64,000 bases of DNA, taken from NCBI GenBank assembly GCA_964017235.1, contig OZ024935.1, positions 4,030,001 to 4,094,000 of the forward strand, read 5' to 3'. Of the stretch, positions 17,960 through 38,159 are shown piece by piece (the stretch's first letter is position 1; each line of letters opens with the position of its first letter). The stretch is from Sabellastarte sp. h YS-2021. Taxonomy: Eukaryota > Annelida > Polychaeta > Sabellida > Sabellidae. The notes under the pieces were generated by a model. That model searched no databases and was not told where the DNA came from. It saw only the letters and a list, made by a program, of their open reading frames with translations. The position numbers and the translations under genes were made by a program.

Positions 17960-20900
17960 TTAAAACTTTTTAAACAGGCCACATTCTTTTAAATAATTTA
18001 TAATATTGTAAACATTTTCATTAAATAGCTCTTCCATCGTATTTATATCTCTATAATATTTTATTCTGGTGTCACGTAGGTCAATACAGTCTAATAGTAT
18101 ATGTTTCACTGTATCAGGACAATGACATGGAATGCACCAGGGCATATCTTCACCTTTCAACAGATAACTGTGAGTGAAATAGGTGTGTCCTATACGGGCT
18201 CGAGTTATAACTATTTCTTCCCTACGAGATAAACCTGTCCAAACATAAAAATCTCCTACTGTAGGGTTTATTTGGAATAGTTTGTTATCAGGACACTCAT
18301 TCCATTGAGCTTGCCACTTTTGTTTAAAAACACTATTTACATTCACTCTCAAGTCTGTATAGGGGACTTTCAAGTCTAAAACATTAAAATTCAAGGCCTG
18401 TTTGGCAAGCTCATCTGCTTTTTCATTGCCCTTTATGCCTACGTGACTAGGAACCCAAGCTAAAACCACTTTCTTATTCACTGACAAACAATCATTAAAA
18501 AGTTTTAAAATATCTTGAATAAAAGGATGATCACAGTTGTTACATTCAAGAGCCTGAAGACTAGATAAAGAGTCACTGAATATGATAAAATGATCCCAAT
18601 CACAATTTTTTACAACATTAAAAGCCATTTTAAGAGCCTGTAATTCAGCTGTGAATATACTAGCATTGCCAGGAAGTCTGACCTGGGCACTGAGGCCATC
18701 AGATGTAGCAGCTGCAGCAACCCTATTTTCTGTTTTCGATCCATCAGTATATATAGCCCTATGGTCAGAGTAATAGCCTTTTAACTCAGCAAATAGACTT
18801 TGAAACATACAATCATCACCAAGTTGTTTCTTTTGATGGGTGAGGAATAAGTCTATGTGAGGTTTCTGTGTAGTCCAGGGTGGGTCATCTGGCAATGACA
18901 CAGTCTGAATTAGATCCAGCTGAGGACAGACAGCAGACAAATCTTCCTCTACACGATGCCCAAAAGACCTTATTGCAGATGGTTTCTTGTCATACAAATC
19001 ATAATACTGGGGGTTAAAAACAGCATCATAAGCTGGATTATCAGGATTACTTCTCAATTTCAAAGCATACTGAATAGATAATTTATCAAACCTTAAATAC
19101 AAGGGTGGTTCATTTGCCTCTACATACAAGCTTTGCATTGGAGAAGTCCTGAAGGCTCCCAGGCATATTCTTAAGCCCTGGTTTTGAATGGGTTCCAATT
19201 TCTTAAGATAAGACTTACGAGCAGAACTAAAAACAGCACAACCATATTCCAATCTGGAACGAACAAATGAACGATAAAGTCTCATTAAAACACTTCTATC
19301 TGCTCCCCAATCCATTTTGGCAACTACTTTCAGTAGATTCATAGCTTTTTCACATTTCTGACGAATATAGTCAATGTGTGCCTTAAAATTCAGTTTACTG
19401 TCAAATATAATACCAAGGAACTTAGTTTGAGAAACAACAGGGATTTGTGAATTATATATTGTCAATGTTGGGTCTGGATGAAGTTTTCTTTTATACAAAA
19501 ATGCATGCAAACAGTTTTGGTTTTAGAAAATTTAAAACCATTTTCATCAGCCCATTTCTCTACTTTATTCAAACACAATTGAAGTTGCCTTTCTATTGAA
19601 GCCATATTTCTAGAAGAACAAGTGATTGAGAAATCATCAACAAAAAGAGACTTTTCAAAGCTAGCTGGAATCACATCAGCAATACTGTTAATCTTTAAAA
19701 TAAATAACGTAACAGAGAGGATGCTGCCCTGGGGTACACCCATCTCTTGCCCATGTATATCTGAATAAACGGATCCTAAACGAACTCTAAAAACTCTGTT
19801 TGATAAAAAATTCTGAATAAACATGGGCATTCGCCCCCTTAGGCCTACTTTATGTAGATCTCTTATAACGCCATACTTCCATACTGTATCGTAGGCTTTT
19901 TCTAAATCAAAAAATACAGAGACTACATGGTTGCCTTTTAAAAAGGAATCTCTAATAAAAGATTCAAGTCTTATTAATTGGTCTGTTGTAGTTCGACCTT
20001 TTCTAAAACCACTTTGATATTTTGTTAAAATATTATTTTTCTCAAGGAACCAAACTAATCTAGTATTAATCATTCTTTCCATGGTTTTGCATAAACAGCT
20101 CGTCAGGGAAATGGGGCGATAATTGGACGGGTTTTTTGGGTCTTTGCCTGGTTTAGGAATAGGTATTACAGTGGCCTCTTTCCAGCATTCAGGAATTTCA
20201 TCTGAAGCCCATATATCATTAAATATATCAAGTAACACCATAAGTGAGTCTCTTGGTAGATGTTTTAGCAGCTGATAATGGATCTCATCTGGACCAGTGG
20301 CTGTGTCATGAGACTTATTCATAGCATCACATAGTTCTCTAATGGTAAATGGTACATTGTAGTTTTCAAAGTTGTCTGTGTCAAAATCCAAGTGTTCTTT
20401 TTCAGTTTTCTCTTTATATTTTTGAAACTCTGTACGGTAATTGTTGCTGCTAGAATTCTTGCGGATTTATTCGGCCAACCTATTTGCTATATCAACTCTT
20501 TCTGTTATTTTTGTCCCATCATTATTTTCCAGATGGTGTATTGTGGTGTTACTTTGTTTGCCACTTATTTTCCTTATCATTTCCCATACCTTCTTTGCTG
20601 GTGTCTTTACATTTAGTTTTGATACATATTCATGCCATGATTTCCTTTTATTTTCTTTAATTATTTTACGAGCATTAGCTCGACAGTTTTTATATTCATT
20701 TATGTTATCTGATGTAGGATTTATACGGCATTTATCCATTGCATTTTGACAAGCTTTAACTGCTTTTTTGCATTCACTGTTGAACCATGGTTTGTAGCTA
20801 CCAGTGGACTGTCCAGTTGACTTTGGCACACATTTTGTTGCTATGTCATTTAACTTATCTAAAAATGCAGGAAACTTTTCTGTTATGTCAGTAAAATTAT

Positions 20901-21663
20901 GCCTATTAATATCCAGAGAACACTGAAGTTTGAATTTTGGCCAATCAGCCTTTTTAAGATTCCAACGAGGAACATTGTCCTTAGGCATACTCTTAACTAT
21001 ATCAATTAAAATAGGAAAATGGTCACTACCACACTGATCTGAATGGACCTGCCATGTAAAATCAAGAAAAACAGATGCAGAACATAAAGACAAATCTATT
21101 GAGGTGAATGAACCTGATGCAGGATGAAAGTAGGTAGGTGACTTATCATTAAGTAAACAAATGTCAGAGGATTCAAGTAGATGTTCCACCTTATAGCCTA
21201 AACTATTAGACGAGGAACAACCCCATAAATCACTATGTGCATTAAAATCACCAATAAATAGAAAAGGTGCAGGTAACTGGTTGACTAGATTTTCAAGATC
21301 AGTTTGTGCAACATTAAAACGTGGTGGAATATATACATTACATACAGTTATAGTTTTATGTAGAGATACTTTTACAGCAACTGCCTGCAGTTCTGTATCC
21401 AACTCAAGTTCCTCATGGGGTATACCTTTCTTAACAAAAATAGAGCAGCCACCAGTGGCTCTCCCATCTACTTCAGATATACAAGTTTTAAAATAGTGAT
21501 CAAAGCCTCTAATATTTACATTATCTGTTTCTTTAAAATGAGTTTCCTGCAATGCTAAAATGTAGGGTCTAAAATTTGAAATTAAATTTTTAATTTCTTC
21601 AAAGTTTGGCCTAAACCCACGACAGTTCCACTGTAGTATACTTTTATTTTTGTTTGGTTCCAT
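17960..21663 (-). pseudogene. LINE ORF2: endonuclease, reverse transcriptase, RNase H
   Basis: APE-type endonuclease: QWNCRGFRPN, LALQETHF, GDFNAHSDLWG, SIDLSLC, SDHFPI (residues about 10-250). Reverse transcriptase: PIPKPGK, NYRPISLTS, FRKGRTTTDQL, FFDLEKAYD, GVPQGSILS and the FVDD active-site box (about 19640-20230). RNase H: IYTDGSK, ELQALK, FSDSLSSL and WVPSHVGIKGNEKADELA (about 18390-18760), then a WCIPCHCPDTVKHIL Cys/His motif near the C terminus. Lesions: TAA at 20467-20469, where copy 1 has a sense codon, and a frameshift near 19490 just after the RT. The ORF2 ATG overlaps the end of ORF1 by 20 bases, an arrangement also kept in copy 1. Confidence 0.93.
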
Positions 21664-22965
21664 TATTTACATTTTTATTGCCACTCCGCCCTTGTGAATT
21701 TGTGATTGGGGATTCTTCGCAACTCATTTCACTGTCACTCAAAACATCATATTTATTGTATTGTTTAACTGGGTCATCAGATCCCTTATGCTGTTTGGTC
21801 AAATATACCTTGCTCTGGCTTATTTTCAATTTAATGGGGTCATTTTGAGATGCATTTGTCTGACTCGATGCACTGGTTTTATTTACTTTAGTTGTCTGTT
21901 TCTCAACCGCACACTTTTTGGGTTGTTTGGTACCTTCTGGCCATGTCATTTCTGTTTGTGTTGCTATGGTTGCTGTTTTCACCACGGGTTTGGTTGCTGC
22001 AGCTGCTTGGGCATAGGTTGATTTCACAGAATTAAATATATCCATTTGTTTCTTGGCTTCTGTATATGAAATCCCTCTTTCTGCCTTTATTCTCTGAATT
22101 TCCTTTTCTTCTTTCCATTTTGGACATTCTTTATCATTTGATGCATGCTTTCCTTGGCAATTTACGCATTTTGCTTCATTCCTACATTCTTGATAGTCTG
22201 TATGATCTTCTTGCCCACATTTTGTGCAAACTTCATTCTTTCTGCAAATGAATTTAGTGTGACCAAACTTTGACACTTATAGCATCTGATGGGATTTGGT
22301 ATGAACTGTGACACAGCAACCCTGTAGTAACCCACCCTGATGTATTTTGGCAAGGTCTGACTTTGGAATGTCAATATAAATGTCCCTGTTGGTTTCCTTT
22401 GTCCATCTCTAAATACTAATATCCTGTCCAGCTTTATGACACCTTCATCTTTTAGTCCATCTAATATCTCCTCATCAGAACAGTCTTTTATATCTGGGCA
22501 TCTAATGACCCCTTTCTTTGTGTTCAGGTTGTAGTGTGGTGATACAGTGATAGGGATAACGTGGTCCATAGTCAGGTTCAGTTTGGTCGTTTTCAATAGT
22601 TTGCTGCTTTGGTTTTCCTTGTCTAATTCAACCAAGATGTCTCCATTCCTTAATTTCTTCATATTACAGGGATCAGACCCAAGAACAGCAACAATGGCCT
22701 TGTTTACAGCAAATGGTGACAGTTTTGACAGAGGTCTCTCATTGTCTGTACCTTTTACTAACAGAAATCGCGGCCATGTACAAATCTGAACAGAATCCAA
22801 GTTCGAAGTCATGAAATCAGGCGAAGTTCTAATCCTTTTCCTATCAGTCATTTGGGTATTTTGTGTAGCCATAATGTTATAGTATTTATTCATTGCCAAT
22901 GTTCTCCACCCACCCTTCGAGCCCAACAAGGGGATATCATAATAGTGTGGAGCTGAGCCCTGCAC
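21644..22965 (-). pseudogene. LINE ORF1 (zinc-knuckle Gag-like), copy 2
   Basis: The likely start is the Met at 22872 (MATQNTQMTDRK), shared with copy 1, rather than 22965. Residues about 10-200 are an unassigned RNA-binding-type region; the three knuckles follow (CYKC..., CTKCGQEDH..., CVNCQGKH...), then a Lys/Thr/Ser-rich tail ending at 21644. A one-base deletion near 22270, inside the first knuckle, splits the frame; copy 1 retains the extra A at that place. As for related elements, the protein would coat the element RNA. The opposite-strand frames here are shadows. Confidence 0.9.
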
Positions 22966-23395
22966 ACTGATATCAGAGATACATCAGCAGTATACTCAAA
23001 GAACACAGACGTGAACCTTGATTGACCTGTTAAGCAGCCGCCTTCTAGATACTCCAAACAAAAGCACAAACCAAACACCAGCAAAATACAATCAAACAAC
23101 AGTATAAACCATTAGAATAAACAAGCCATCACTAATTTGGAGCACTAGGGCTTGGCACTACCAGCCGATTGATTAAGCCAGGCCATCTTAACCTTCCGAC
23201 TAAGTGAAATTGAGGCCAAAGCTGTGTATTGCCTCCTCAATGCCGCAACAAAGTATTGGCTCAACAGCCAGGACCCTCTCTTCCACTGACACGGATCGCA
23301 ACCCACGGCAAACAGGCTGCCCCCAATTAGTCGCCTCTTACGACACGCAGGAGGATACGTTGGGCCTATTCTACATCCCCGGACCCACAGGGGGA

Positions 23396-25206: not shown

Positions 25207-28200
25207 ACAAGGAACAGATGGATGACTTTAGGGGATATGTTAAGTCACAATTGGGTGGGGATATAATGGACAATCAATCCATCAAACACGTTCAGCAAAT
25301 CAATTATTTAGTCAATTCTGTGTCCTTGAAACTTGACGATGAATCCTTTCCGCTGGCACTCAACACCCTTTTAGATTTAAAGCTAAAAGAGAAAAAAATG
25401 GTCCCCAAACACATTTAAAACTTATGTAAATTCTTTACTGAAAGTAGGAAACTATCTGTTGAAAATGAAGCACCTAGGTGTAAACAAATATTCTTGTGTC
25501 AATGCCAGAAATATTTCTATTGCAAAAGATTTCATGTTGGACTGGATTGCACTCTCCACAAGAAACACAAGGAACTCTCAAAACAAAAGGCCAAGGAGAG
25601 TTTTGTTGACCGAACCAAAATCACCCCTGATGACCTAACAAAATATGTTAATAGTGAAAGAGCTTCAAGTGCTAAACACCCGTTGAATAGTGATAGGGCT
25701 AAGGTTTTGGTAAGTATTAACCAGAACACCCATACTGCTGTAAGAAATTTCCTGATTATGACCATTACCATGAGCAATGCCCATCGCACTGGGTGCATCA
25801 TAAATATGATGGTGGATGTTGTGGCAGCAGAAAAGTTTGTGGGGGAGTGGGGTCCACGTGATTTTTGTAGACCTACCCAAAATGCATGGGAAATATGAAC
25901 GGGCAGACTGTGTGGCATCTCCAGAGGTTTTTAAATGGATGAAAACCTACCTCGACCTGTTCCGTCCAGCAACTGAGGCTAACAATCTGTTTCTGAGCTG
26001 GGGTTAGTTTTTATATCAGTGCAAAAAATACTTTTAAAAAGATTTAATGGCAATAATCATTATTTCAGGTTTAGTTTGTCTAGACTTTCATAAAACCTGG
26101 TGTAGTAGAATGAGTTTCAGTCTTGTCACTGATATCAATGGGCCTTGATGGGTGACAGTGTCAGTGCCCTATGCATGTTTCTGAGCTTGTGCATGAATAC
26201 TGAAGCACTTTGTATCATCATTTTGTATGATTATATCTGATTCACTCTAACTTTTCACACCACGCAATAGACAGCTGACAAATTTTACAAATCTAACACA
26301 AAATATTTACACAAACACAAAACTTAACACCAACTATTAGTTCAAGAAAGTTTTATTAGTTTTGCATAACTGTGCCAAACTAAGTTGTCTTACAGGTTGC
26401 AGTAGCTACCATCTAATCTAGTGTAGATGTTTACAGTGCTTAATAGCACAGTGGTTATGTGATTTCACACATACTGTTGATCAATACATTTCAGAAGATA
26501 TGTTTAATGCTCCAAGGTGATTCTTCTTTCTTTTTTCAGTGGAGTTAAAAACTGTCTGACAACTGAACTCAACCTCGTTGGCATCATCAAAAAGTATTTT
26601 TTTCCCTATTTTAACCTTACAATTTTGTAATAAACCTTTACTAAAATTATTCAATGGTTATTATGCTCATAATCCAATACTTTTGTTAATGGTATGACTG
26701 CTATTGTGTGATATTCTCCTATATTTTCCCAATATAAATTTTGTTTATTTATATGCTGTTGGATAACATTTTATAAAAATGTAATAGCAATCAAGAACAA
26801 CACTGATTATTTTTAGTGAAATAATCAAAGGTTTTGACTCATGCCATGGAACAGACAAATTTTTAATCGAACTAATAAAGTTGAACACTCAATATTGTCT
26901 ACTATTTTTAAAGTAAAATTTGTTATTATTAACAACCTTGATTTATAGGAGGCAAAAAACATGCATGTAGCATGTAACTGTGTAATAAATGTAATTTTAA
27001 CATAATTAGCAGATTCAGTTGGTAGTCAAATCTAACTTCTTTCTAACTGTATGTTGCATGTTGTTATATTCCCCATTAGTCCATATTTTACAGAAGGGCC
27101 ATTCAGCATCCTATTAAGAGGATTATTATTGAGGTGATCACCAACCTTCACCAAGATCTGGTGATTAGTGATTCTGATGATGATGTGATTATTACTCACC
27201 AATCAAAAGCCCTTGAAAACATCATATTGTGTAGTAAAATGTCCCACGATGACAAGTGGATACAGGAAGTTGAATGAGAAGAGCCAGTTCCCCCTTTTGT
27301 GTACCCGGTTATGACGAGAAATGCGACATCAAGAAAGAGATGTATCTTTGAAGCTTGCACCGTAACCATGAAGAAGCTTCATGAACATGTAGAGAGAACA
27401 CACATTCTGTGGAGTGTAAGTCGCCAATGTTTGGATTTGGAAAAAGCACAACAGTTTCCCACCGCCGAATCGACCAAGGCCCTGTCGGCAGCAGACCAAG
27501 AAAACATGCATCTTTTTGAGCAACACATAAATGTCAGAAGAGCCAATTTTCTTATGATGGTATCACCCCCAAACTCAGTAGGTAGTCTCATCCACTGGAG
27601 ACTAATTGCAGGCCTAATGAATTATCTGGGTCATCAGGATACCACAACCTTAACTCCTATTGAACAACAGATTCCGTTATCCGGCATCTTGTATAGGGAC
27701 GTGGTGGACTCACATTGCCATCTGCTTGAGTTTTTACAAGGCAAGAAAGGATTGGAAGTACAAGGATTGAGAAAGGCAGTATACAACTATGGGTTGAAAG
27801 TACACCAAAATGTAAACATTGCAGCATTGGTTTCCTCACACTTTTTCCCAGATGAAGTTCCGTATCCTGATGCGGCAGCCAGAGCTACTTGGAAGGTGGA
27901 AGAAATTCCAGTATATTGCTGTTTGGGTTTGCACCCCAAAGTGTGTAATGAACCAAGGGATGATCTATTGGATCAACTTGACCAGCAACTCATGTCTCTG
28001 GATGTCGGCAGTTTGGCGGATTTCCAGTTATCATTCATTGCTGTGACAATCCGGGTTCTTCAGTGGCATATTTTTATTGCCTGAAAATATTTGAGTTGGA
28101 GCTGTTACCGACTCATCCAGTGTACCTGCATTGTTTTACAGCTGGACTGCAAGTCTTTGAGGCCTGGCAGAAGGTATTTACAGGAATGTACTTTGGATTT

Positions 28201-28446
28201 TCACCCAAGATTGTGTGGGGTACTCACCATGTGGAGTGTCCTGACGTTGTGAAAAGGATTTCACTGTCAAAGATATTGTTGGAATTAGATTGTCCGTTTT
28301 TGCCCAACAGAGCTGCAGGGGAGCCACAGAACACTCCGTGGTCTGTTGTGAACATTACTCAGAAAATATCCGAAGTCATAGGACAGAATACTTTGACAAT
28401 TATGAAGTACACGGCATGAAACGCCAAAGATTTTTACAATATCTAA
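25207..28446 (+). pseudogene. Decayed gene: tyrosine-recombinase-like region + C2H2 finger + TatD nuclease
   Basis: Three plus-strand exons. Exon 1 (25207-26002): an N-terminal helical part (YVKSQLGGDIMDN), a Cys/His cluster (CQCQKYFYCKRF) and a block with NAHRTG and FKWMKTYLDLFRP that resembles the first Arg motif and following strands of tyrosine recombinases. Exon 2 (26540-26593): 18 codons, opened by TTCTTTTTTCAG. Exon 3 (27094-28446): a C2H2-like finger (CIFEAC...LHEHVERTH), then TatD-family motifs DSHCHL (27707), GLHPK (27930), PVIIH (28025), LHCF (28130) and DCPF (28285). Lesions: TAA 25416-25418, frameshift near 25850, TGA 27275-27277, frameshift near 28015, TGA 28417-28419; the exon 1-2 junction also mismatches in phase. 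The TatD assignment is strong, the recombinase assignment moderate. Confidence 0.7.
26003..27093 (+). other. Introns of the recombinase/TatD gene
   Basis: Intron 1 runs from the GTTAGT donor at 26003 to the acceptor at 26539; intron 2 runs from GTATTT at 26594 to TATTTTACAG at 27093. Exon 2 end and exon 3 start agree in phase 2. The introns are AT-rich and hold no other recognisable feature. Confidence 0.5.
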
Positions 28447-29571
28447 TCTCTGCCTAGGAGATTAGTGGACACTGGTTTTGTTTTGTTTTAGTTGGGTTGT
28501 GTGCATGAGTTAGTCCTTGCTTGGGAGACTAAAATTAGCTTTACTAGTTAATGTGAATAATTATTAGTTTCTGTTTTGGAGACTAAAAATTGTGATTGGA
28601 AGTTGCATCAAATGTATATAAAGTCAGATATTTGATTTAATAGACAAATCAGAAGGGTGAAATAGATTCTAAGAAGTTGCGTTGATAGTTGTTATGAAGG
28701 AGAAGTTGCCATATGGAAATCATGGTGCAGGATTAATCAAGGTCCCGTTGACATTGATAGGAGCACTAACAACGGAGTATCCTCATATTGTTGTAATGAC
28801 AAAAAGAGCTCCATGTTTTTCGAATTTTCTACAGATTGGCGCCCAAGCAAATGGGTGCACCCCAATGATGGTCCATCCTCTTCATATCGGTCATCTTCAG
28901 TGCTCTTCCGAGTTTTCATGGATGCGCCAGATCATTTTTCAGGTCACTTCTCTCTTTGCACCTTCTTTTCTTCTCATCATTATTCTTCATGGAATCTTCA
29001 GGGAAGTGTTGGTCCCGAGGAGTTTATGGTTGACTTCAGATTTTATACACGTCAATTCAACATGACTGCTATGATAAAGAGGCAGTTGGTGTGTTATAAG
29101 AAAAGAAAGCCATTATTGGGTGAACACATCAATGTATCAAGACTGCTGTGATAAAGAGACAGTTGATGTGTTATAAGGAAAGAAAGGAAAAGAATGAGTG
29201 TTTTGTGGTGCAGTAATAGCAGAATTGATGAATTGGTGAGTGCAGTTTGTCAATGTGTTAAGAAGTGAAATTAATTTTTAGGCAGGACTTTAGTTAAACT
29301 CCTACAGGTTGAAGGTATTTTTGTGTTAAATTGGATTTTATTTGATTTATTTTATTTATGTTTTGTGCTCAGTGGATTAAGGTACTAAGAACAGATTTTA
29401 TTTCAATACACACTAGATATTAGAATATGGCGTTACTCTGGTGGACTGGAAAAAAAAGCTAAAAAGTCTTCTCTCAGGAGACTTATGTGACTGAATCATT
29501 GTTTAAAGATGGTGAAGATTCACTACCTGAAAGCCTGCAGCAATTGACTAGTCTCTGTCTAAGAGACTTAG
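28443..29571. repeat. Five similar short hairpins
   Basis: Hairpins of one pattern occur at 28443-28465 (CTAATCTC/GAGATTAG), 28510-28532 (TTAGTC/GACTAA), 28564-28586 (TTAGTTTC/GAGACTAA), 29464-29484 (AAGTCT/AGACTT) and 29548-29571 (AGTCTC/GAGACT). Loops are similar (TGCCTAG, TGTTTTG, TGTCTAA). The first overlaps the terminal TAA of the TatD pseudogene. All lie within about 1.1 kb. Confidence 0.65.
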
Positions 29572-29992
29572 TACTTATAAGTGGGATACCTAAACGTGTT
29601 GTGGGTGTGAATAATTTTGTGTGACTAAAGTGTCATTGACTGTGAAAATTCAACTTGATGTTTTTAGTGAAAAGTTACAGGCAATCAACTCCAGCCCAAT
29701 AAAGGAAGCACCCACATGGAGGGTTGGAGGGCCATTTCCTTCAAGAAGATAGTGTGCGGTGTTGTGACTGTCACCGATCGGGCAAGTGTGACCGCACCTT
29801 TAGGTTTCAGGAAGTGGAGCCGCCCCTTAAGCAGACAGTGAGTCAATCAGCCGTCGTGACTTTTGTCTACAGATTCCTGCGCCTGTCAGCACTTGAAGTC
29901 TAGATCCCAAACAGTTCACATCAAAGTAAGTTTGTTATATCTTGTGTCAATTATCTTGTATATATAAAGTGTTATATTGAAAAATACGGGAA
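28587..29992 (+). other. Downstream region of the TatD pseudogene, unassigned frames
   Basis: Open frames at 28682-29065 and 28813-29151 overlap in different phases and match nothing I recognise. A direct repeat of about 40 bp (GATAAAGAGRCAGTTGRTG) lies at about 29072 and 29150. Near 29755 a plus-strand frame shows a CDCHRSGKCDRTF cysteine cluster directly before the frame at 29993 and may belong to it. Confidence 0.35.
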
Positions 29993-30563
29993 ATGAATAC
30001 TGATGTGTCCAATGTGCACATGGTGGACAAGAGTACCAACACCGAACCTCTGATTGTGCTGAGTCCAGATGAGGTTGTCTCACTCCAAGATGGCTTTACT
30101 ATCACCACTTATGGGAAAAGTCTACAAATATTTGTGGACACTATCAAGAGTGATATTGTCTTCTGCAAGCCAAAACTGGCCAGAATTTCCAACTACCCAA
30201 ATTGGTATTTTAAACATACTACCCTCCTTCCACAAAGGATGCCAGACACGCAAAGTAGCTGAAAAGGAGGGTAAACCAACAGTCTCTAACTCAGATAGTC
30301 AGAACAGCCGGCCAATAGCTAACTCCAGTGATACGCCAATTGACATCTTGGGGCGCTTATTCACTAAGAAAGATGACTCAGCCCCCTCTGCTTCACCTGC
30401 AAAAAAGAGAAGCCATTCAGACACTACCAAAAATTCAGCTAATAATGAACCTGTAGCCAGCACCTCCACCTCAACTACAGAACCCAAGAGTACACCAGAA
30501 CCCACCATGGAACAGATGTGTGCTAGGAAACCTACTAGACCAAGTCTCTGTCCCTCCAAATAA
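29993..30563 (+). pseudogene. Ser/Thr-rich ORF, copy D (finger-less relative)
   Basis: Begins MNTDVSNVHMVDKSTNTEPL and contains the block PLIVLSPDEVVSLQDG followed by GKSLQIFV. The frame at 55062 contains a matching block (DPLVVLDPIDIKSLHGG then LNQIFI), so the two are related. After a frame slip near 30245 a Ser/Thr/Pro/Lys-rich disordered tail with DILGRLFTKKDD follows, ending at 30563. No zinc finger is seen upstream unless the Cys cluster near 29755 is one. Function unknown. Confidence 0.5.
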
Positions 30564-31076
30564 AAGACAAAAGTTTGATATCCCCAAGGAATTTGCGAAA
30601 AAAGACTAAAAAAATTCCATACCCCAATTATTTTGTGAAACTTTAATAAACATTATCTTTAAGTATTAAGAATAAAACAAACCCAACATTCTTCATTTTA
30701 TTCTAATAACAGCATTAGAAAATATTTAACTAATCACTCTGTCCCACAGTATGTAATTAATTTCATACAAATATTAATTCCATACTCTTGTTAACAATTT
30801 TCCATGCTCAGAATAATTAAAGGGCGCATTACTTTAATAATACTAAAGTATAAGTAATGCACTAATTGAAAGACAATATTCAACTTTCTTATAAAGGATT
30901 TATTAAAATGGATAATTACTAATGTGTATTGTTTTACTGTGTAATTTATGGATTATAAATTTAATAAATGGACATCACCCATTTACTAAAACAACATAAA
31001 TCAATGCATCTGATCACCAATACTAACCTGCCAAATTACTATGGGAGTATTCTTCACCTAAATATATAAGGTGAAT
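30564..31076. other. AT-rich spacer
   Basis: Nothing recognisable up to the TTAA that marks the piggyBac insertion. Confidence 0.5.
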
Positions 31077-31400
31077 TTAACCCTTTCGCTACCATATCTG
31101 TCGACTAGCAGTCGACACTCAAGTGTATTCCCAGGGACGATGTTTGTCGAGAGGGTTCGACGATTTTATAATAAAAATATAAGTTCCTTCAGTACATTTT
31201 TATTAAATTTTATAAGTTCAGGGGACTTCTATCGACACATTGTGACATCATTTATTGGTTGTGACGTCATAAAAACGTCAATCTAACGCAAAATAGACAT
31301 TTATATGCCTCTCTAAAACGTGGTCTGTTTATGGTATGTGTGCTGTTTGATTTACATACTACTTTTTGGTGAAATATTTTAGTAGCATATTTTTTGCATA

Positions 31401-34057
31401 ATGGCCACATTTAGTGCCTCTCAGGCCAGGGATTTAGTGTTGAATAGTGACACTGAGGACGGCTTATTAGAAGAAAGCAGTGATGAGTACATGTCAAGTG
31501 AAACTCAGTCTGATACTGAAAGTGATTCTCAATTATCAGTTACAGAGGAACCTCAAAGAAATACTGTGGTTAGGGGGAGGGGTAGAGGGGATGGCAGGGG
31601 TGGTCGCAGGGGTCAAGGAAGGGCTGGTTGTAGGGGTCAAGGCAGGGTTGGTCGAGGAAGGCCTGGTGGTCGAGGAAGGGCTGGTGGTTTAGGAAGGGTT
31701 GGTGGTTGAGGAAGGCTCGTGGCAGAGGTCAAGTGAGGGAGATAGATATAGAAGACTCTATGGAGGAGGGTAAGTGAGGCAGGTGATGAGGTAGATGGTG
31801 AACCAGTTGTTGGTGATCTTGAGGTCAATGTTCAAGATATAGATTGGGTAGAACCAAATTTGGCCATGCCTGATACTCCAAGGTTTCGTGCACGACCAGG
31901 TGTCTTAGTTGATACTACTAATTTGCATTCCCCACATGAATATTTCAGACATTTTCTAAATATTGATATCATGAATCTGATAGCTGAAGAGACCAATAGA
32001 TATGCTACAGACTACCTTGAGGGCCACCCAAACTTGCCTCGTTTTTCAGATTTGAGATGGTCTCCTATTGACGTGACTGAGTTAGAAAATTTTTTGGGAC
32101 TGTGCCTCCTTGTTGGCATTGTCAAAAAACCTAGATACAGTGATTACTGGGCCACAGAACCTTTGATGTATACCCATATTTTTTCTACCATTTTCAAGAG
32201 AGCCAGGTTTCAACTGATCATGCACTTCCTTCATTTCAACAATAACAACAATGAGCCTAATCACAATGACCCAGACCATGACCGCATGTTCAAAATACGA
32301 CCACTTATAGATCATTTCAATGATACTTTCCAGGCTGCCATACAGCCAGAGCAAGAAATTGCACTAGATGAATCTTTACTTTTATTCAAAGGTAAACTTC
32401 ACTTCACGCAATATATTCCAGCAAAAAGGTCACGCTTTGGCATAAAGATATTTCAAGTTTGTGAATCTAAGACAGGTTATTCATACAAATTCCTTGTATA
32501 TCAAGGCAAGATGGCACCAACTTTTGGCATAGAAAATCAGATGGCTAATGTTAGAGGGGCCACCAATACAGATAAGCTGACTGTAGCTATGATTGAACCA
32601 TTGCTAGATTAAGGGTACCATTTGTATGTGGACAATTGGTATACAAGTATTCAAATATTTAGATGAACATGAGACCCCAGCTTGTGGAACATTGAGACAA
32701 AATAGGGTGCCACGAGGTTTGAGGGATGTAAACATGCAAGTAGATGAAACCAAAGCTCTCAGATCTGATAATATTCTAGTTCTGAAATACAGGGCCAAGC
32801 CCAAAAAATATGTGAATGTCATGACCACCATCCACAACGAAGCCTCTTCTGAAGTAAATGTTTGTGGAAGGCATCAGCTGCGTGTGAACAAGCCTTTAGC
32901 AATACAGGAATACAACAAATATATGGGAGGGGTGGATCGCATGGATCAGGTGAGTTTTTCTAATTTTTTTTACTATTTTATGACAATTTATTTTCATGTG
33001 CACATTCCATGCATTTAGTTGTAATCGCTTAGCCATGTATTTTTTAAAACATTACCTAAAAAAATTGTGTAAACTATCACACAACTAAGAAGTGGCATAT
33101 ACTTACCTGAACTTACCTGACATATACTTACCTGAACTTACCTGACCTTGCCCTGCTTGTTACAATCACTTCATGACTTCTTGTAGGTTCTGCACTACTA
33201 TGACTGCACTCGGAAATCTTTGAAATGGTACAGGAAACTTGCATTTCACCTGATGCAGATTGCCTTGTGGAATTCTTGGATTTTGTTTGTGAAAGAGACA
33301 GGCTCGAACATGACTTTCTTGAAGTTCCAGTTACATGTAAGTAATCTAAATAACATGTAACATAGTTTTGCATGTGTGAAAATGTGCTTTGTGGAGTTTG
33401 TTATGCCATGTTATATTACAAAGTAAGAAATAATTATTGTTCCAGTATGAATCCTAATTGTTGAAAGAACTGTGAAACCAAACTGACCTTTCCCTTCTTA
33501 TTTATATGTTAGGGTTAGCCTTTATTGTAATATGTTCCTTGTAGGTTATTGGAGGCATGATTTTCAAACAGGATCCTGTTCCAGCTCAAGCCAATGAAGA
33601 TTTCATTCGTTTGACAGCTCGCCATTTCCCTAGTTTGCTTCCTCCTACAGGAGCCAGGCAGCATCCTTATAGATGTAAGGTGTGCCGTGTGAGGAGAAAC
33701 ATCAGGAGGGAAACCAAGTACTTTTGTGCAAAGTGCCCCAGTCAACCAGCCTTGTGTGTTGATTTATTTTTTAAGTTTTATTTGGGGTTTTACGTCGCTT
33801 TCAACACTGTACAGGTCATATCACAACGGGTAGTTGGAAGGGCAGAGGAAACCAGTACATAGAGTTCGCTAGGGTTGTGTACTGTAAACTGCCGATCAAC
33901 GGCAAGCAACTACCAGCTTTCCCACTTAAGGCTGTCATGGGGATCGAACCCCGGCCTCAGAGGTGGGAGGCGAGAGTGTTACCACTCTGCCACCGTGGCC
34001 CCCGCCTTGTGTGTTGATGGCTGCTTTGAGATGTACTACACACTTCCTGATATTTGA
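31401..34057 (+). pseudogene. piggyBac transposase (three exons, disrupted)
   Basis: Exon 1 (31401-32949): acidic start, a long Arg/Gly repeat (RGRGRGDGRGG), then the DDE_Tnp_1_7 core with ENFLGLCLLVG, LDESLL (first Asp, 32367), YVDNWYTS (second Asp, 32631) and YMGGVDRMDQ (third Asp, about 32934). Donor GTGAGT at 32950. Exon 2 (33187-33336): YYDCTRKSLKWYRKLAFHL. Exon 3 (33545-34057): Cys-rich C-terminal domain (CKVCRVRR...YFCAKCP...ALCVD) split by a SINE, resuming GCFEMYYTLPDI. The enzyme would cut and paste the element at TTAA. Lesions: frameshifts near 31700, 31770 and 32660, TAA at 32610-32612, and the SINE. All three catalytic Asp codons survive. Confidence 0.93.
33764..34003 (-). mobile_element. 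tRNA-derived SINE, copy 2, inside piggyBac exon 3
   Basis: Same family and orientation as 4913-5147, with box A TGGCAGAGTGG and box B GGTTCGATCCC on the minus strand and a T-rich (A-rich in its own sense) tail at 33764. It is flanked by a perfect 15 bp target-site duplication, GCCTTGTGTGTTGAT, at 33749-33763 and 34004-34018. Removing one copy of the duplication and the SINE restores a continuous transposase frame around the insertion point, so the insertion came after the transposon. Confidence 0.96.
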
Positions 34058-34523
34058 ACTATTAACTTTGCATACCACTGGACTTATTTGGCCATCTTTG
34101 TGCTTGTTTTCACCATGTTACTTCAAATAAATGAAAATAAAAGACTGTTCATATGTTTAGCTTTATTTTTAGTGCACTTTTATGTTATTTACAAGTGATG
34201 ACGTCATATGACGTCCAATGCCACAGTCCCTCAGAATAATGCTCCTTCAGTAGAGAAAGGGTTAATACTCAACATGTCTTCGGTCAAGTCCTGTTAACTT
34301 AAACCAGCATCTCAAAACCATATTGTATTGGAACAAGCGACCTTGAATCCATAAGCTGAAATATAAGATGTACTTAGGACATGCAATACAACCCTATATA
34401 CTACGGATTATAATTTACCAAGGTCACTGACAACTATGCAAATACATGTGGACCACAATACTCATTATCATACTTTATGCCTAGATCAAATAATAGTAAT
34501 ACATTTCTATATTATTATTATTA

Positions 34524-34835
34524 TGTATTTATACTCAGCGCAATATCTCCATATACTATAGGAATCAAAGCACTATTTAACCAATCCGACTGTACAGGTA
34601 CAGCCCCAACTCACAAGTAACTGACATTCCCCTAACTGGAAGATAGAGGCTCAAGGATGACCATTTATCAACGTCCTTGAGGTTCTTTAACCTGCTACTG
34701 GGGATAGGACCTAATGACAGAGGACCGCCATTTTAAGTGGTCATCCAAGCCACTATATATCTTCCTGTACCTGGGACTGAACCCACATCCTCTGAGTTCC
34801 TAGACAAGTGTGTTACCCGCTAGGCCACAGTGCCA
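34524..34835 (-). mobile_element. Second tRNA-derived SINE family, copy 1
   Basis: On the minus strand it begins TGGCACTGTGGCCTAGCGGG, with box A-like TGGCCTAGCGGG and box B-like GGGTTCAGTCCC, followed by about 240 bp of body and an ATA/ATT-rich tail near 34505-34530. A second copy at 39699-39996 matches over the whole length, including ACTGGGGATAGGACCTAATG. No clear target-site duplication. Confidence 0.75.
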
Positions 34836-35256
34836 GATGCAGTAACATAATTAATATTATTTCAGTATGTTAGTAAGGAGTCCCCCAGGTATGAAAATAA
34901 CAGTAATAGTGCTAAAATCCATACTATTGGTTTACTAATACTTTACATTACTTTCCCAATACTATTACAAGAGGAGAGTGCCCGTGAACGGGCACTGTGT
35001 CAGCTGACTGAGTGTTTTTGATTTGTGAAGGTGATTAGAGGACAGAATAATTATCAGGAAAAGGGCTGTACACAAATACAGTAAATGGTAACTGAACAGC
35101 AAGTTCGAAAGAAATTCCGAAGCTGACAGAAGAAAAGGATAAAAAAGTTGTGCCCTGTAAATGGTATTATGAAGGAAAATAACAAGGTAATTGTTTAAGT
35201 GTAAAAAATAGGTTAAAACATATTTAAAGAAATACTAGAAATGCAATAACCTCGTT
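34836..35256. other. Spacer with a perfect hairpin
   Basis: A 20 bp self-complementary word, AGTGCCCGT-GA-ACGGGCACT, lies at 34977-34996. Nothing else is recognised. Confidence 0.5.
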
Positions 35257-35833
35257 CGACCTTGAAGAAGGGGTCCAAGGTCAAATCTAACCACACAAAT
35301 ACATTCCCAGCCCATGATTTCCTATGGTTTACCATTCCAAACCTCTAGGACCAATTATAAATGAGTTATAAGCACTTTTAAGCTTGGCTGTCCTCATTTG
35401 ACCTTGAAGGAGGGGTCCAAAGGTCAAATCTGACCATACCAAAAGATTCCGAGCCAATGATTTCCTATGGTATGGTTTACCATCCCAAATCTCTGTCACC
35501 AATAATAAGCGAGTTGTAGGCACTTTCAATTTTCGGTATCCTCATTTGACCTTGAAGGAGGGTTCCAAGGTCAAATCGGACCATATCAACAGATTCACAG
35601 CCCATGATTTCCTGTCTGTTTACCATCCCAAACCTCTGGGACCAATAATAAGCGAGTTATAAGCACTTTTAAGTTTGGCTATCCTTGTTTGACCTTGAAG
35701 GAGGGGTCATTGAAGGTCAAATCTGACCACACCAAAAGATTCCCACCCCATGATTTCCTACAGGTTGGTTTATCATCCCAAACTTCTAGGATCAATAATA
35801 AGGGAGATATAAGCCCTTTTCATGACTGACAAA
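35257..35833. repeat. Four tandem units of about 145 bp
   Basis: Unit starts at 35257, 35399, 35547 and 35690, each opening with TGACCTTGAAGGAGGGGTCC and followed by AAGGTCAAATC, so the unit begins with an inverted pair of AGGTCA-type words. Later parts share CATGATTTCCTA, TACCATCCCAAA and CCAATAATAAG. Related sequence is at 57770-57880. Confidence 0.88.
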
Positions 35834-36007
35834 AAACACCTGTGGCGGCCATCTTGTTTCTCAAAATGAGGCCAAAAATATTCCCAGACAACATTTTATG
35901 GTTATTAATATATACTGCAAACTTAAGAAAGCTAGCTATAATATTTTTTTTCATCAAAGCAGTAATGGTGAAATCTCTCTCTACACACTGCGGCTATCCA
36001 GTGGATA
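35834..36007. repeat. GGCGGCCATCTTG repeat fragment
   Basis: Holds GTGGCGGCCATCTTGTTTCT and adjoining sequence resembling the units at 58060-58600. Confidence 0.5.
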
Positions 36008-37216
36008 CAATGATTTACTCAACAGTGAGAACCTGAAAGTAGCTATTGCTCAGCTATGCCATGACATAGAGGTCTGCAATTTCACTATGTTATAGCAAAA
36101 TTCTGTGAATAACATATTTAACAAATTACTCTAAATGTAATAGTTTTCAAGTTACAACTGATTTACTCAACAGTGAGAACCTCAAAGGAACTATTACTCA
36201 GCTATGCAATGAGCTACATGTCTGAAATTTTACTATGTTATAGCTAACCCAAAAGTAGGTGAACAACATATTTAAGCAAACTACTGTAAATGCAATAGTT
36301 TTCAAGCTACAACTGATTTACTCAATAGTGAGAACCTGAAAATAGCTATTGCTCCGCTATGCCATGAGCTATAGGTCTGTAATTTCACTATGTTATAGCT
36401 GACCCAAAAGTAGGTGAACAATATATTTTAACAAAATACTCCAAATGCAATATTTTTCAAGTTATAGCTGATTTACTCAACAGTCAGTACCTGAGAATAG
36501 CTATTGCTCAGTTGTGCCATGAGCTATAGGTCTATAATTTCACTATGTTATAGCTGACCTAAAAGTAGCTATTACTCAGCTATGCCATGAGCTACAGGTC
36601 TGAAATTTCACTATGTTATAGCTGGCCCAAAAGTAGCTGAATAACATATTTATACGAAATTCTCTAAATGCAATAGTTTTTAAAGTTACAAGTGATTTTA
36701 CTCATAATGGAAGTTACTGAAAAGCCCAAAAGTAGCTATTACTCACTTAGCTATTGAGACAGACACCCAACTTACTCACCATATTGTAGCTATGAAAAAA
36801 GTAGCTGAACAACATATTTTCACAAAATGCTGTAAATGCAACACTTTTGAAGTTATAAGTGATTTAGTGCATGATTTCATGAATTTTAATGCATTAAAAA
36901 TTATTAAAAAAATTTATTAAAAAAAAAGTAAGACAGATCCAGGTCTCATACTCACACAAGAGAATCTACCTCTGGCCTAGTACATATATGCAAGATATGA
37001 GAGAAATCCCTGCAATAGCTCTCTAGCAAACAGACGAACAGACAGATTTGCATGCCTTGAACAATTTTTCATCCTCGATAGATAAGGTATCTTTTAAAAA
37101 AAACAGCATGTCTCTAGGCCTTGTAGTTTTGGATAAGAAGTTGTTCACGCGGACGCGTACGCCCACGCCGCAGAGTGATGACATAATGTCAGCTGACTGA
37201 CAGGTCACCTGACATA
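36008..37216. repeat. Second copy of the satellite composite
   Basis: About five satellite units in the order seen at 2026-2800, with one unit shortened near 36560, then the diverged unit (from about 36690), the A-rich tail (36880-36920), the TAAGACAGATCCAGGTCTCA block and the GC-rich block ending in a hairpin at 37186-37216. The order and the diverged last unit match 2801-3390, so this is a copy of the same composite, not an independent array. Confidence 0.9.
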
Positions 37217-37660
37217 ATAAAAGTATTGATAGGTGTACCGGTGCAAATGCGCCCAAAATTAGTACCGAGGGGGGATATTTGCCCAATAACTCTGATGAGA
37301 AAGTTTACCCTATTCTTTCGAAACACAATATAACAGTAATATATAGTGTAAGGCATTTATCATAAAGACTTATTGAGACTTAAAATCATTCCCACCATAG
37401 CTTCTTACTACCGAACACCGGACCGCCTCCCTGGAAACGACTCGGAACATGTCTAATGTCTCATGATTTATGCCTTACGGATTGGATGGTGTGCCTTAGA
37501 ATCCGTTGATACGGAGATTAAGCACCTGGACAACTGATTGATTGACTTAATTGTGTTTAAGTGACTCACATATTTCACTTATTAATTTCCTTGTTAAGAG
37601 GTAGTAAGATAAAAGTGTATTTATTTAAAAGTGTGATTTATTTTTAAGAATGACAAATGA
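37217..37660. other. Spacer, no gene recognised
   Basis: Low-similarity sequence with a short GATTGATTGACTTAATTG stretch near 37540. Nothing else seen. Confidence 0.4.
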
Positions 37661-37750
37661 TGTCAGGCATCTTGCTGTCACTGTTGTGATCAGACTCTCT
37701 TTCCAACTGAATGGAAAGATTTGGTCAGTTTGATGCAGCACAGTGAGAAG

Positions 37751-37864
37751 ATGGCGGAATCTATTTATAATGATTCATCCTGCACATTGAAGAAAATTTG
37801 GATGTCAAACATCCTGAACAAAGTAATGACAGGAGAGGTTACTGCTGAAGATCTACAGGAACAG
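37751..37864 (+). CDS. Exon 1 of a putative cellular gene (MADF/SANT-like)
   Basis: ATG at 37751 in the context AAGATGGCGG opens MAESIYNDSSCTLKKIWMSN and runs 38 codons to a donor (CAG then GTATTC) in phase 0. The frame is open further upstream to about 37661 with a cysteine pair. The pattern of a Trp, LN and an LQEQ end, continuing with KWQKLK in the exon at 38764, resembles MADF or Myb/SANT-like DNA-binding domains. That is a weak, motif-level resemblance; the protein could also be transposon-derived. Confidence 0.4.
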
Positions 37865-38159
37865 GTATTCGGTAATTAATTATTAAGAATGTAAACATTG
37901 TTTAGGAGACTTCAAACTTCCAGGTATGACATAATTATTCTGAGCTAAGTTTTTACCCCAGAGCCCTTCATGGCATGTGGCATGTGACTGGGCATTTTGG
38001 CCAAGTAATCCATCAGTTTGTAAGAATCAATCAATCAATGAGGTATCCAGGTGCTTAATCTACGTGTTCATGGGTTCAAAGGCACAATACCCAATTCCAT
38101 ACCCATAAATCATTAGTCATTGGGCATTATCTAAGCCGTTCCCAGGGAGGCAATCATTT

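Follow-up and report, generated by a model that had tools for sequence, protein, structure and literature searches.

TatD-bearing Ty3/Gypsy-like retroelements in the genome of Sabellastarte sp. h YS-2021 and the probable origin of an apparent recombinase–nuclease fusion

A 64,000-nucleotide stretch of the Sabellastarte sp. h YS-2021 genome (assembly GCA_964017235.1, contig OZ024935.1, positions 4,030,001 to 4,094,000), hereafter the window, contains a region at 25207–28446 that the initial annotation read as one spliced gene joining a tyrosine recombinase-like part, a C2H2 finger and a TatD nuclease. The window belongs to contig C11 in a genome of 1.786 Gb, and all genome searches were performed within this same genome. 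The analysis points with considerable confidence to two unrelated units: a decayed tyrosine recombinase-like (YR-like) gene, extending from before 25207 to 37879, and the 3′ fragment of a long terminal repeat (LTR) retroelement in its large intron, which belongs to a family of elements with a TatD protein encoded by the third open reading frame (ORF3). The recombinase and the nuclease are adjacent because the LTR-element fragment sits within the intron of the YR-like gene; it is this neighbourhood that gave the appearance of a fusion.

The young relatives of the TatD part are Ty3/Gypsy-like LTR retroelements in which TatD has a separate third ORF, placed past pol and ahead of the 3′ LTR. A tblastn search with the TatD piece of the window returned at least 144 genome matches, many of them in stop-to-stop frames of 682 amino acids (aa). 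The elements are ordered as follows: LTR, gag with CCHC knuckles, aspartic protease, reverse transcriptase (RT), RNase H, integrase, TatD ORF3, and 3′ LTR. The Gag frame of copy L032 contained two CCHC knuckles (zf-CCHC, 8.5e-14), with gag-asp_proteas also detected (5.1e-07), and a single long frame held RVT_1 (2.1e-28) and RT_RNaseH, followed by Integrase_H2C2 (1e-21) and rve (6.7e-16). Further 5′, a long Gag frame was judged by eye to have a coiled coil and the look of a capsid; the 5′ Gag piece of L034 matched no Pfam family. Three copies were 98% alike across approximately 7.8 kb. The ATG-started TatD ORF begins about 240 bases past pol. An intact ORF of 678–680 aa with its own ATG was present in 11 of 12 copies (no start was found in L021), and an RT match lay upstream of TatD in 10 of the 11. 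Intact homologues with TatD as a separate gene had been named beforehand as the observation that would speak against a fusion, and these 11 copies are of exactly that kind. The accompanying suggestion that the TatD part of the window is one dead copy among many was also borne out: the family is large and mobile, and intact copies occur at other places in the genome.

Copies of the family are bounded by LTR pairs, shared ends of the kind that the initial annotation had proposed to look for. The LTR is 237 bp long, and the members of eight pairs differed at 0, 2, 0, 1, 1, 1, 3, and 2 of 237 sites. With the LTR end taken as ACTATA and the flanks judged by eye, 4-bp target duplications were recognized in seven of the eight pairs. 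Six pairs measured 12.95–13.28 kb from end to end, and the other two 14.0 and 17.6 kb. The young elements are recent insertions. A DIRS/Ngaro-type YR retroelement was considered and rejected, since the integrase of the RT-bearing relatives is of the rve type and the YR exons belong to a separate locus.

At the nucleotide level, colinearity of the window copy with the young elements begins at 27249, takes in the TatD remnant and the 3′ UTR (untranslated region), and extends to the end of the LTR (Table 1). Retroelement homology therefore starts inside the proposed exon 3 and runs past the TatD stop, which is at odds with one spliced gene. The TatD fragments matched PF01026; one match passed the curated cut-off (E 6.5e-17) and the other fell short of it (E 8.4e-05). 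In the alignment, ...SLDV is followed directly by FGGFP, with another 26 residues lost upstream. The block GEVGLDY, which holds the catalytic Glu, is deleted; therefore, four TatD signature blocks are left in exon 3, and not all five as had been stated. With the Glu block gone and stops and a frameshift in the reading frame, this copy has neither the full set of ligands nor an open frame. In addition, its LTR is 10% diverged from the young LTR, the gag and pol pieces of L032 had no match in the window, and only a single LTR and the 3′ part are present, not the two LTRs and gag-pol of a complete element. The LTR divergence, the TatD lesions and the lack of a gag/pol match thus identify the window copy as an old, 5′-truncated fragment.

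Exon 3 was also not one unit at its other end, as its first 169 bases resemble neither the YR family nor the element family. The 53-aa translation of this part had four other weak genome matches (E 9e-6 to 3e-4; five including itself), none of them coinciding with a TatD or YR place on the lists, and the part before DKWIQEVE had no match in the fetched loci beyond its own place. Within it, the translated stretch ITNLHQDLVISDSDDDVIITHQSKAL (27128–27238) matches the four other places at 49–72%. At 28817–28880 in the 3′ UTR, the sequence following a splice-acceptor-like tract (GAGGCCCAAGCAAGTGGGTGCACCCGGC in young copies) was nearly constant in the 20 copies displayed, and the bases after it vary by subfamily.

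Exons 1 and 2 have a C-terminal partner of their own, which lies 11 kb beyond them and likewise speaks against one spliced gene ending in TatD. A tblastn query with the C-terminal exon of the YR relative L041 matched the His/Tyr part at 37694–37876 with E 4.5e-10; the Arg part at 37638–37688 was matched only at E 0.19 and in another frame. A whole-genome search recovered the same exon independently (E 1.7e-4) as one among 18 matches; with 18 matches in 1.786 Gb, the chance expectation for such a match within 12 kb of a given point is about 1e-4. Exon 1 had 15 other genome matches, the best with E 4.8e-22. The relatives L039, L040, L041, and L043 have open frames of 205–297 aa with the blocks N[AGP]H[RK][TS]G, GxHxIxVxxHKTRxTYGxA, and RPASE...NWG. 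In L040 and L041, a second exon with TCTDARHLAVT and LHxKxxQQGVYND follows less than 0.5 kb downstream. The location of the C-terminal exon means that the YR gene spans both the TatD fragment and transposase remnants at 31752–33015 with the DDE_Tnp_1_7 domain (PF13843), which we take to be of the piggyBac type.

Tyrosine recombinases have the catalytic pattern Arg...Lys...(H/x)xxR...H/W...Tyr. This pattern was read by eye in L040 and L041 and in part in the window, with Lys at the box-I Arg in L040; the mapping of these residues onto the Cre/Xer pattern is our assumption. Exon 1 does look recombinase-like, as noticed at the outset, and exons 1 and 2 together with the C-terminal exon are probably YR-like. 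Several results weigh against the label. It is based on motifs and sub-threshold Pfam matches, with spliced L040 reaching 1.3e-4 and 22.2 bits against Phage_integrase (cut-off 27.1); spliced L041 matched no recombinase model in Pfam; and a PDB profile search with the YR alignment found no recombinase. A search of PHROGs gave no useful lead. Because L040 falls below the Pfam cut-off and L041 matches no recombinase model, we grade the YR likeness as probable and unproven. The profile search proposed with the fusion succeeded on one side, with TatD PF01026 detected in the exon 3 fragments and nothing convincing from Pfam in exon 1.

The linkage between the two units was examined with a script that compared 15 other matches of the YR N-terminal part and 17 other matches of the YR C-terminal part with TatD places (80 from tblastn, after extra pieces of the same copies were dropped, and 147 from a Pfam scan). 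None of the 32 YR matches had a listed TatD within 43 kb, and the closest pairs were 43.6 kb (C19) and 46.6 kb (C6) apart. Both TatD lists cover only part of the candidates (143 scored of 360, and 147 of 649), and the comparison is therefore not exhaustive. Among the listed places, there was no second YR–TatD neighbourhood, and the recombinase and the nuclease are separate units, not parts of a fusion protein.

ORF3 of the young relatives contains a full-length PF01026 domain (3.6e-42, 144.9 bits against a cut-off of 27), and the domain scored 143.2, 143.2, and 132.2 bits in three other families. The residues H407, H409, E509, H545, H576, and D629 (His/His/Glu/His/His/Asp), presumably the TatD metal ligands, were invariant in five sequences from the four families. 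The best solved relative was 1j6o (E 4.3e-22). TATDN3 was matched better (5.9e-11) than TATDN1 (0.003–0.007), and there was no TATDN2 chain among the 16 structure-database hits. The C2H2 finger of the initial annotation corresponds to the motif C-x4-C-x9-H-x4-H, whose C, C, H, and H were invariant in the five sequences from four element families. The four residues are present as claimed; however, the motif is atypical, with nine residues between the pairs and not the usual twelve.

Selection on ORF3 was estimated from 21 ORFs of at least 450 aa, taken from 30 tblastn loci and giving 210 pairs (133 pairs with at least 100 shared codons for the N-terminus). The ratio of summed nonsynonymous (dN) to summed synonymous (dS) divergence was 0.099 for TatD, 0.059 for residues 231–405, and 0.383 for the N-terminal part. 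In 11 full-length ORFs, codon positions 1, 2, and 3 of TatD differed by 1.1, 0.8, and 5.3%, compared with 6.9% in 400 bases of the 3′ UTR of these copies. This pattern of substitution indicates strong purifying selection on ORF3 in the family of the window copy, the contrast being large despite the non-independence of the pairs.

The layout recurs in other element families. All 147 candidates scored among the 649 first-look candidates of the genome-wide Pfam TatD scan exceeded the Pfam cut-off, many in ORFs of 831–1239 aa. RT, RNase H, and integrase lay directly 5′ of TatD in L078 (938 aa), L079 (965 aa), L080 and L083 (831 aa), and L085 (876 aa); across the families read with full pol, the third ORF ranged from 680 to 965 aa. 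Comparison of the 680, 831, 938, and 965 families gave RT identities of 60–83% and TatD identities of 28–49%. In the divergent L056 and L058, TatD is preceded by an integrase tail. L077, a copy with an internal deletion, has gag, an integrase tail and TatD, and a 204-bp LTR is repeated in it without difference. L084 (1019–4735, minus strand) has gag and then an aspartic protease in frame with TatD (1239 aa), with no RT or integrase match, and is a candidate non-autonomous derivative. Altogether, the upstream flank was read or searched at 15 TatD loci, and gag or pol sequence was present there in 12 of them. The view of TatD as an ordinary host gene in many copies was therefore rejected for these 12 loci; it may still hold for L055, L057, and L059, whose fetched stretch had no pol match. 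L077 had also raised the suspicion that the 831-aa family includes a pol-less gag–TatD lineage, which was rejected because L080 and L083 carry full pol.

The association was also examined from the side of the polymerase. An RT search, with 102 places scored among 21,375 candidates, was compared with 159 TatD places (147 from the Pfam scan and 12 from tblastn). A listed TatD lay 3.8–9.2 kb downstream on the same strand at 66 of the 102 RT places, namely 29 of 35 near-copies and 37 of 67 places at 56–59% identity; only three placements had TatD upstream of RT or on the opposite strand. When 12 of the 36 RT places without a listed TatD were sampled, TatD was present in 10, which were all 10 of those in the 56–59% class. 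Two tandem arrangements were also observed. At G000:C2:3520142-3536854 (L009, L016, L018, and L022), five TatD ORF copies follow each other about 3.85 kb apart, too close for full pol between them. On C19, four equal-score TatD matches with one TAG each (30984941, 31011159, 31037368, and 31063588) are spaced at about 26.2 kb, probably through tandem duplication of a larger block.

The copies L080 and L085 differ abruptly at the pol/ORF3 border. They are 98.4% identical over 2,982 bases ending just before ORF3; beyond the border, only pieces of 72–88% identity were found through ORF3 and the 3′ end. Their pol genes had dS of 0.06 and dN/dS of 0.51 (few changes), whereas synonymous differences in TatD were saturated, with a proportion of nonsynonymous differences (pN) of 0.19 and 70% amino acid identity. 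The sequences of this pair, the only one sought, are best read as a putative recombination at the pol/ORF3 border that swapped the module.

In the proposed mechanism, the ORF3 protein would be a nucleic-acid-processing enzyme in the element's own cycle, and the finger, with a basic N-terminus in some families, would bring the TatD activity to nucleic acid. More specifically, ORF3 may trim or cleave RNA:DNA hybrids or 3′ ends produced by reverse transcription and integration, in a TATDN2/TatD-like manner, a tentative assignment to which we give slightly less than an even chance. The main rival is that the ORF3 TatD is a counter-defence nuclease that removes host small RNAs, sensing substrates or silencing-triggering hybrids and does not serve reverse transcription. 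LTR elements carry accessory genes at the position after pol, and the free-standing ORF occupies this position; moreover, the pair with saturated ORF3 synonymous divergence and near-identical pol recalls the exchange of accessory or envelope genes, and the N-terminus evolves faster (dN/dS 0.38). However, the TatD core is highly conserved within the family (about 0.10), and we consider counter-defence rather unlikely, although stronger than the remaining competitors. A captured host gene that is a functionless passenger of the element would fit the two sampled places with near-identical RT, neither of which had ORF3 in the fetched stretch; the strong purifying selection, the catalytic residues retained across four families, and the downstream TatD at 66 of 102 RT places and 10 of 12 sampled misses make it very improbable. 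The rest of the probability falls to other, unspecified roles of ORF3.

A true spliced fusion gene of YR, finger and TatD, now dead in the window copy, would account for the shared strand, the proper order, the splice-like dinucleotides, and the ORFs in sequence. The claimed order and strand are indeed present, with the NAHRTG...FKWMKTYLDLFRP stretch (25.2–26.0 kb) followed by TatD-like sequence (27.25–28.44 kb). Likewise, AG and GT occur at the positions required for splicing, but such dinucleotides are common. The fusion is contradicted by the element homology that continues through the 3′ UTR to the LTR, by the YR C-terminal exon downstream of the element fragment, by the absence of a second such neighbourhood among the listed places, and by the free-standing TatD ORF behind pol elsewhere, so that we regard it as extremely improbable. 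On the broader scale, a whole Ty3/Gypsy lineage may have permanently adopted TatD as a third gene where env would lie, equipped with a nucleic-acid-binding finger of its own and in many cases with a basic tail. The enzyme would be needed for replication or for escape from the host, and the module would be exchanged at the pol/ORF3 border like retroviral env; in our judgement, the chances for and against this are balanced.

Several observations count against the preferred interpretation of TatD-bearing elements with ORF3 serving their own cycle. The element has its own RNase H, and a role in hybrid removal would therefore be partly redundant. The role suggested for TatD is an inference; what the sequences show is location, constraint, conserved ligand and finger residues, and one exchange. 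The eighth LTR pair (C14, 14 kb) has no target duplication, and the divergent TatD loci L055, L057, and L059 had no pol match in the fetched stretch. The RT near-copies at C8:110.40M and C11:66.37M had no TatD in the 2 kb fetched; either the element can be maintained without TatD or these copies are damaged. The selection test drew on long-open ORFs and non-independent pairs only, and since dN/dS for pol (0.51) comes from a single pair, no pol value of comparable depth stands beside the low TatD ratio.

The features of the window that concern the two units are collected in Table 1. Elsewhere in the window, a non-LTR element with RVT_1 and endonuclease domains lies at 19465–21666 (minus strand), and 193 bases at 23202–23394 are 99.5% identical to the start of L044 on C19 and represent a young short repeat.

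Table 1. Features of the YR-like gene and of the retroelement fragment in the window.
Feature	Position	Strand	Evidence and remarks
YR-like exon 1	25207..26002	+	Frameshifts and a stop; box-I-like NAHRTG; tblastn with L039/L040/L041/L043 ORFs, E down to 7e-50
YR-like exon 2 (GVKNCLTTELNLVGIIKK)	26540..26593	+	Weak match (E 0.002) to L043 exon, 68% over 19 aa; splice-like borders
5′ part of earlier exon 3	27080..27248	+	Most likely intron; resembles neither YR nor the element
Ty3/Gypsy-like LTR retroelement 3′ end, 5′-truncated, in YR-gene intron	27249..29987	+	Nucleotide colinearity with L006/L031, L036, L037
Broken TatD ORF3 remnant	27249..28443	+	C-x4-C-x9-H-x4-H motif and 4 of 5 TatD blocks; two in-frame TGA, frameshift, two internal deletions
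3′ LTR	29760..29987	+	90% identity over 234 nt to L036 LTR; final TATA of young LTRs not preserved; also genome LTR search
C-terminal YR exon	37649..37879	+	NDVRHLAVT, then other frame LMQHSEKMAESIYND; frameshifted; TAA end; AAG at 37646–37648

The elements share with Ty3/Gypsy (Metaviridae) the LTRs, the 4-bp target duplications, the CCHC gag, the order of protease, RT, RNase H and integrase, and the H2C2/rve integrase, and differ in the separate TatD nuclease ORF before the 3′ LTR. The familiar gene content of LTR retroelements is gag and pol, joined in some of them by env. Like env in retroviruses and errantiviruses, and like the accessory genes of certain retroviruses (dUTPase, for example), the third ORF lies downstream of pol and upstream of the 3′ LTR and seems to be exchangeable. 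Unlike retroviral env, ORF3 encodes a nuclease domain and no membrane protein, and the likeness is one of position and apparent exchangeability. With the TatD nucleases (E. coli TatD/YcfH/YjjV and human TATDN1-3), ORF3 has in common the full-length PF01026 and the His/His/Glu/His/His/Asp set; it is distinguished by its retroelement location, its basic or divergent N-terminus and the C-x4-C-x9-H-x4-H motif. As for tyrosine recombinases and Cryptons, the likeness concerns the YR exons only (box-I-like NAHRTG, DxRH, and His followed by Tyr nine residues on), whereas the YR-like gene is below the Pfam cut-off, intron-bearing, present in few copies, and unlinked to TatD.

No report of TatD in a retroelement was found in open-licence PubMed Central, with Repbase and preprints outside the search, and the combination was not found described in this literature. 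A 2018 survey of mollusc LTR elements sorts Gypsy clades by RT/RNase H, and the term “TatD” is absent from its main text (PMC6238403). Passages of PMC12709183 describe AP endonuclease activity of TATDN1/3 and cleavage of RNA in R-loops by human TATDN2. A TATDN2 retrocopy treated in a section of PMC5408686 and the use of tatdn2 as a fish syntenic marker in a section of PMC5840709 are unrelated to TatD-bearing elements. A figure legend on the giant squid Hox cluster lists a “putative deoxyribonuclease TATDN2” among non-Hox genes, beside a pogo-derived gene (PMC6962438); our guess is that a TatD-bearing element may have been labelled there as a gene of the host.

The case of the window is a warning that gene models can join such pieces into false fusion genes. 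The TatD-bearing elements may account for the abundant TatD matches in this genome (at least 147) and offer a handle on the action of TatD at RNA:DNA hybrids and DNA ends. As a third gene, a cellular nuclease kept for a long time would extend the retroelement toolkit in an unexpected way.

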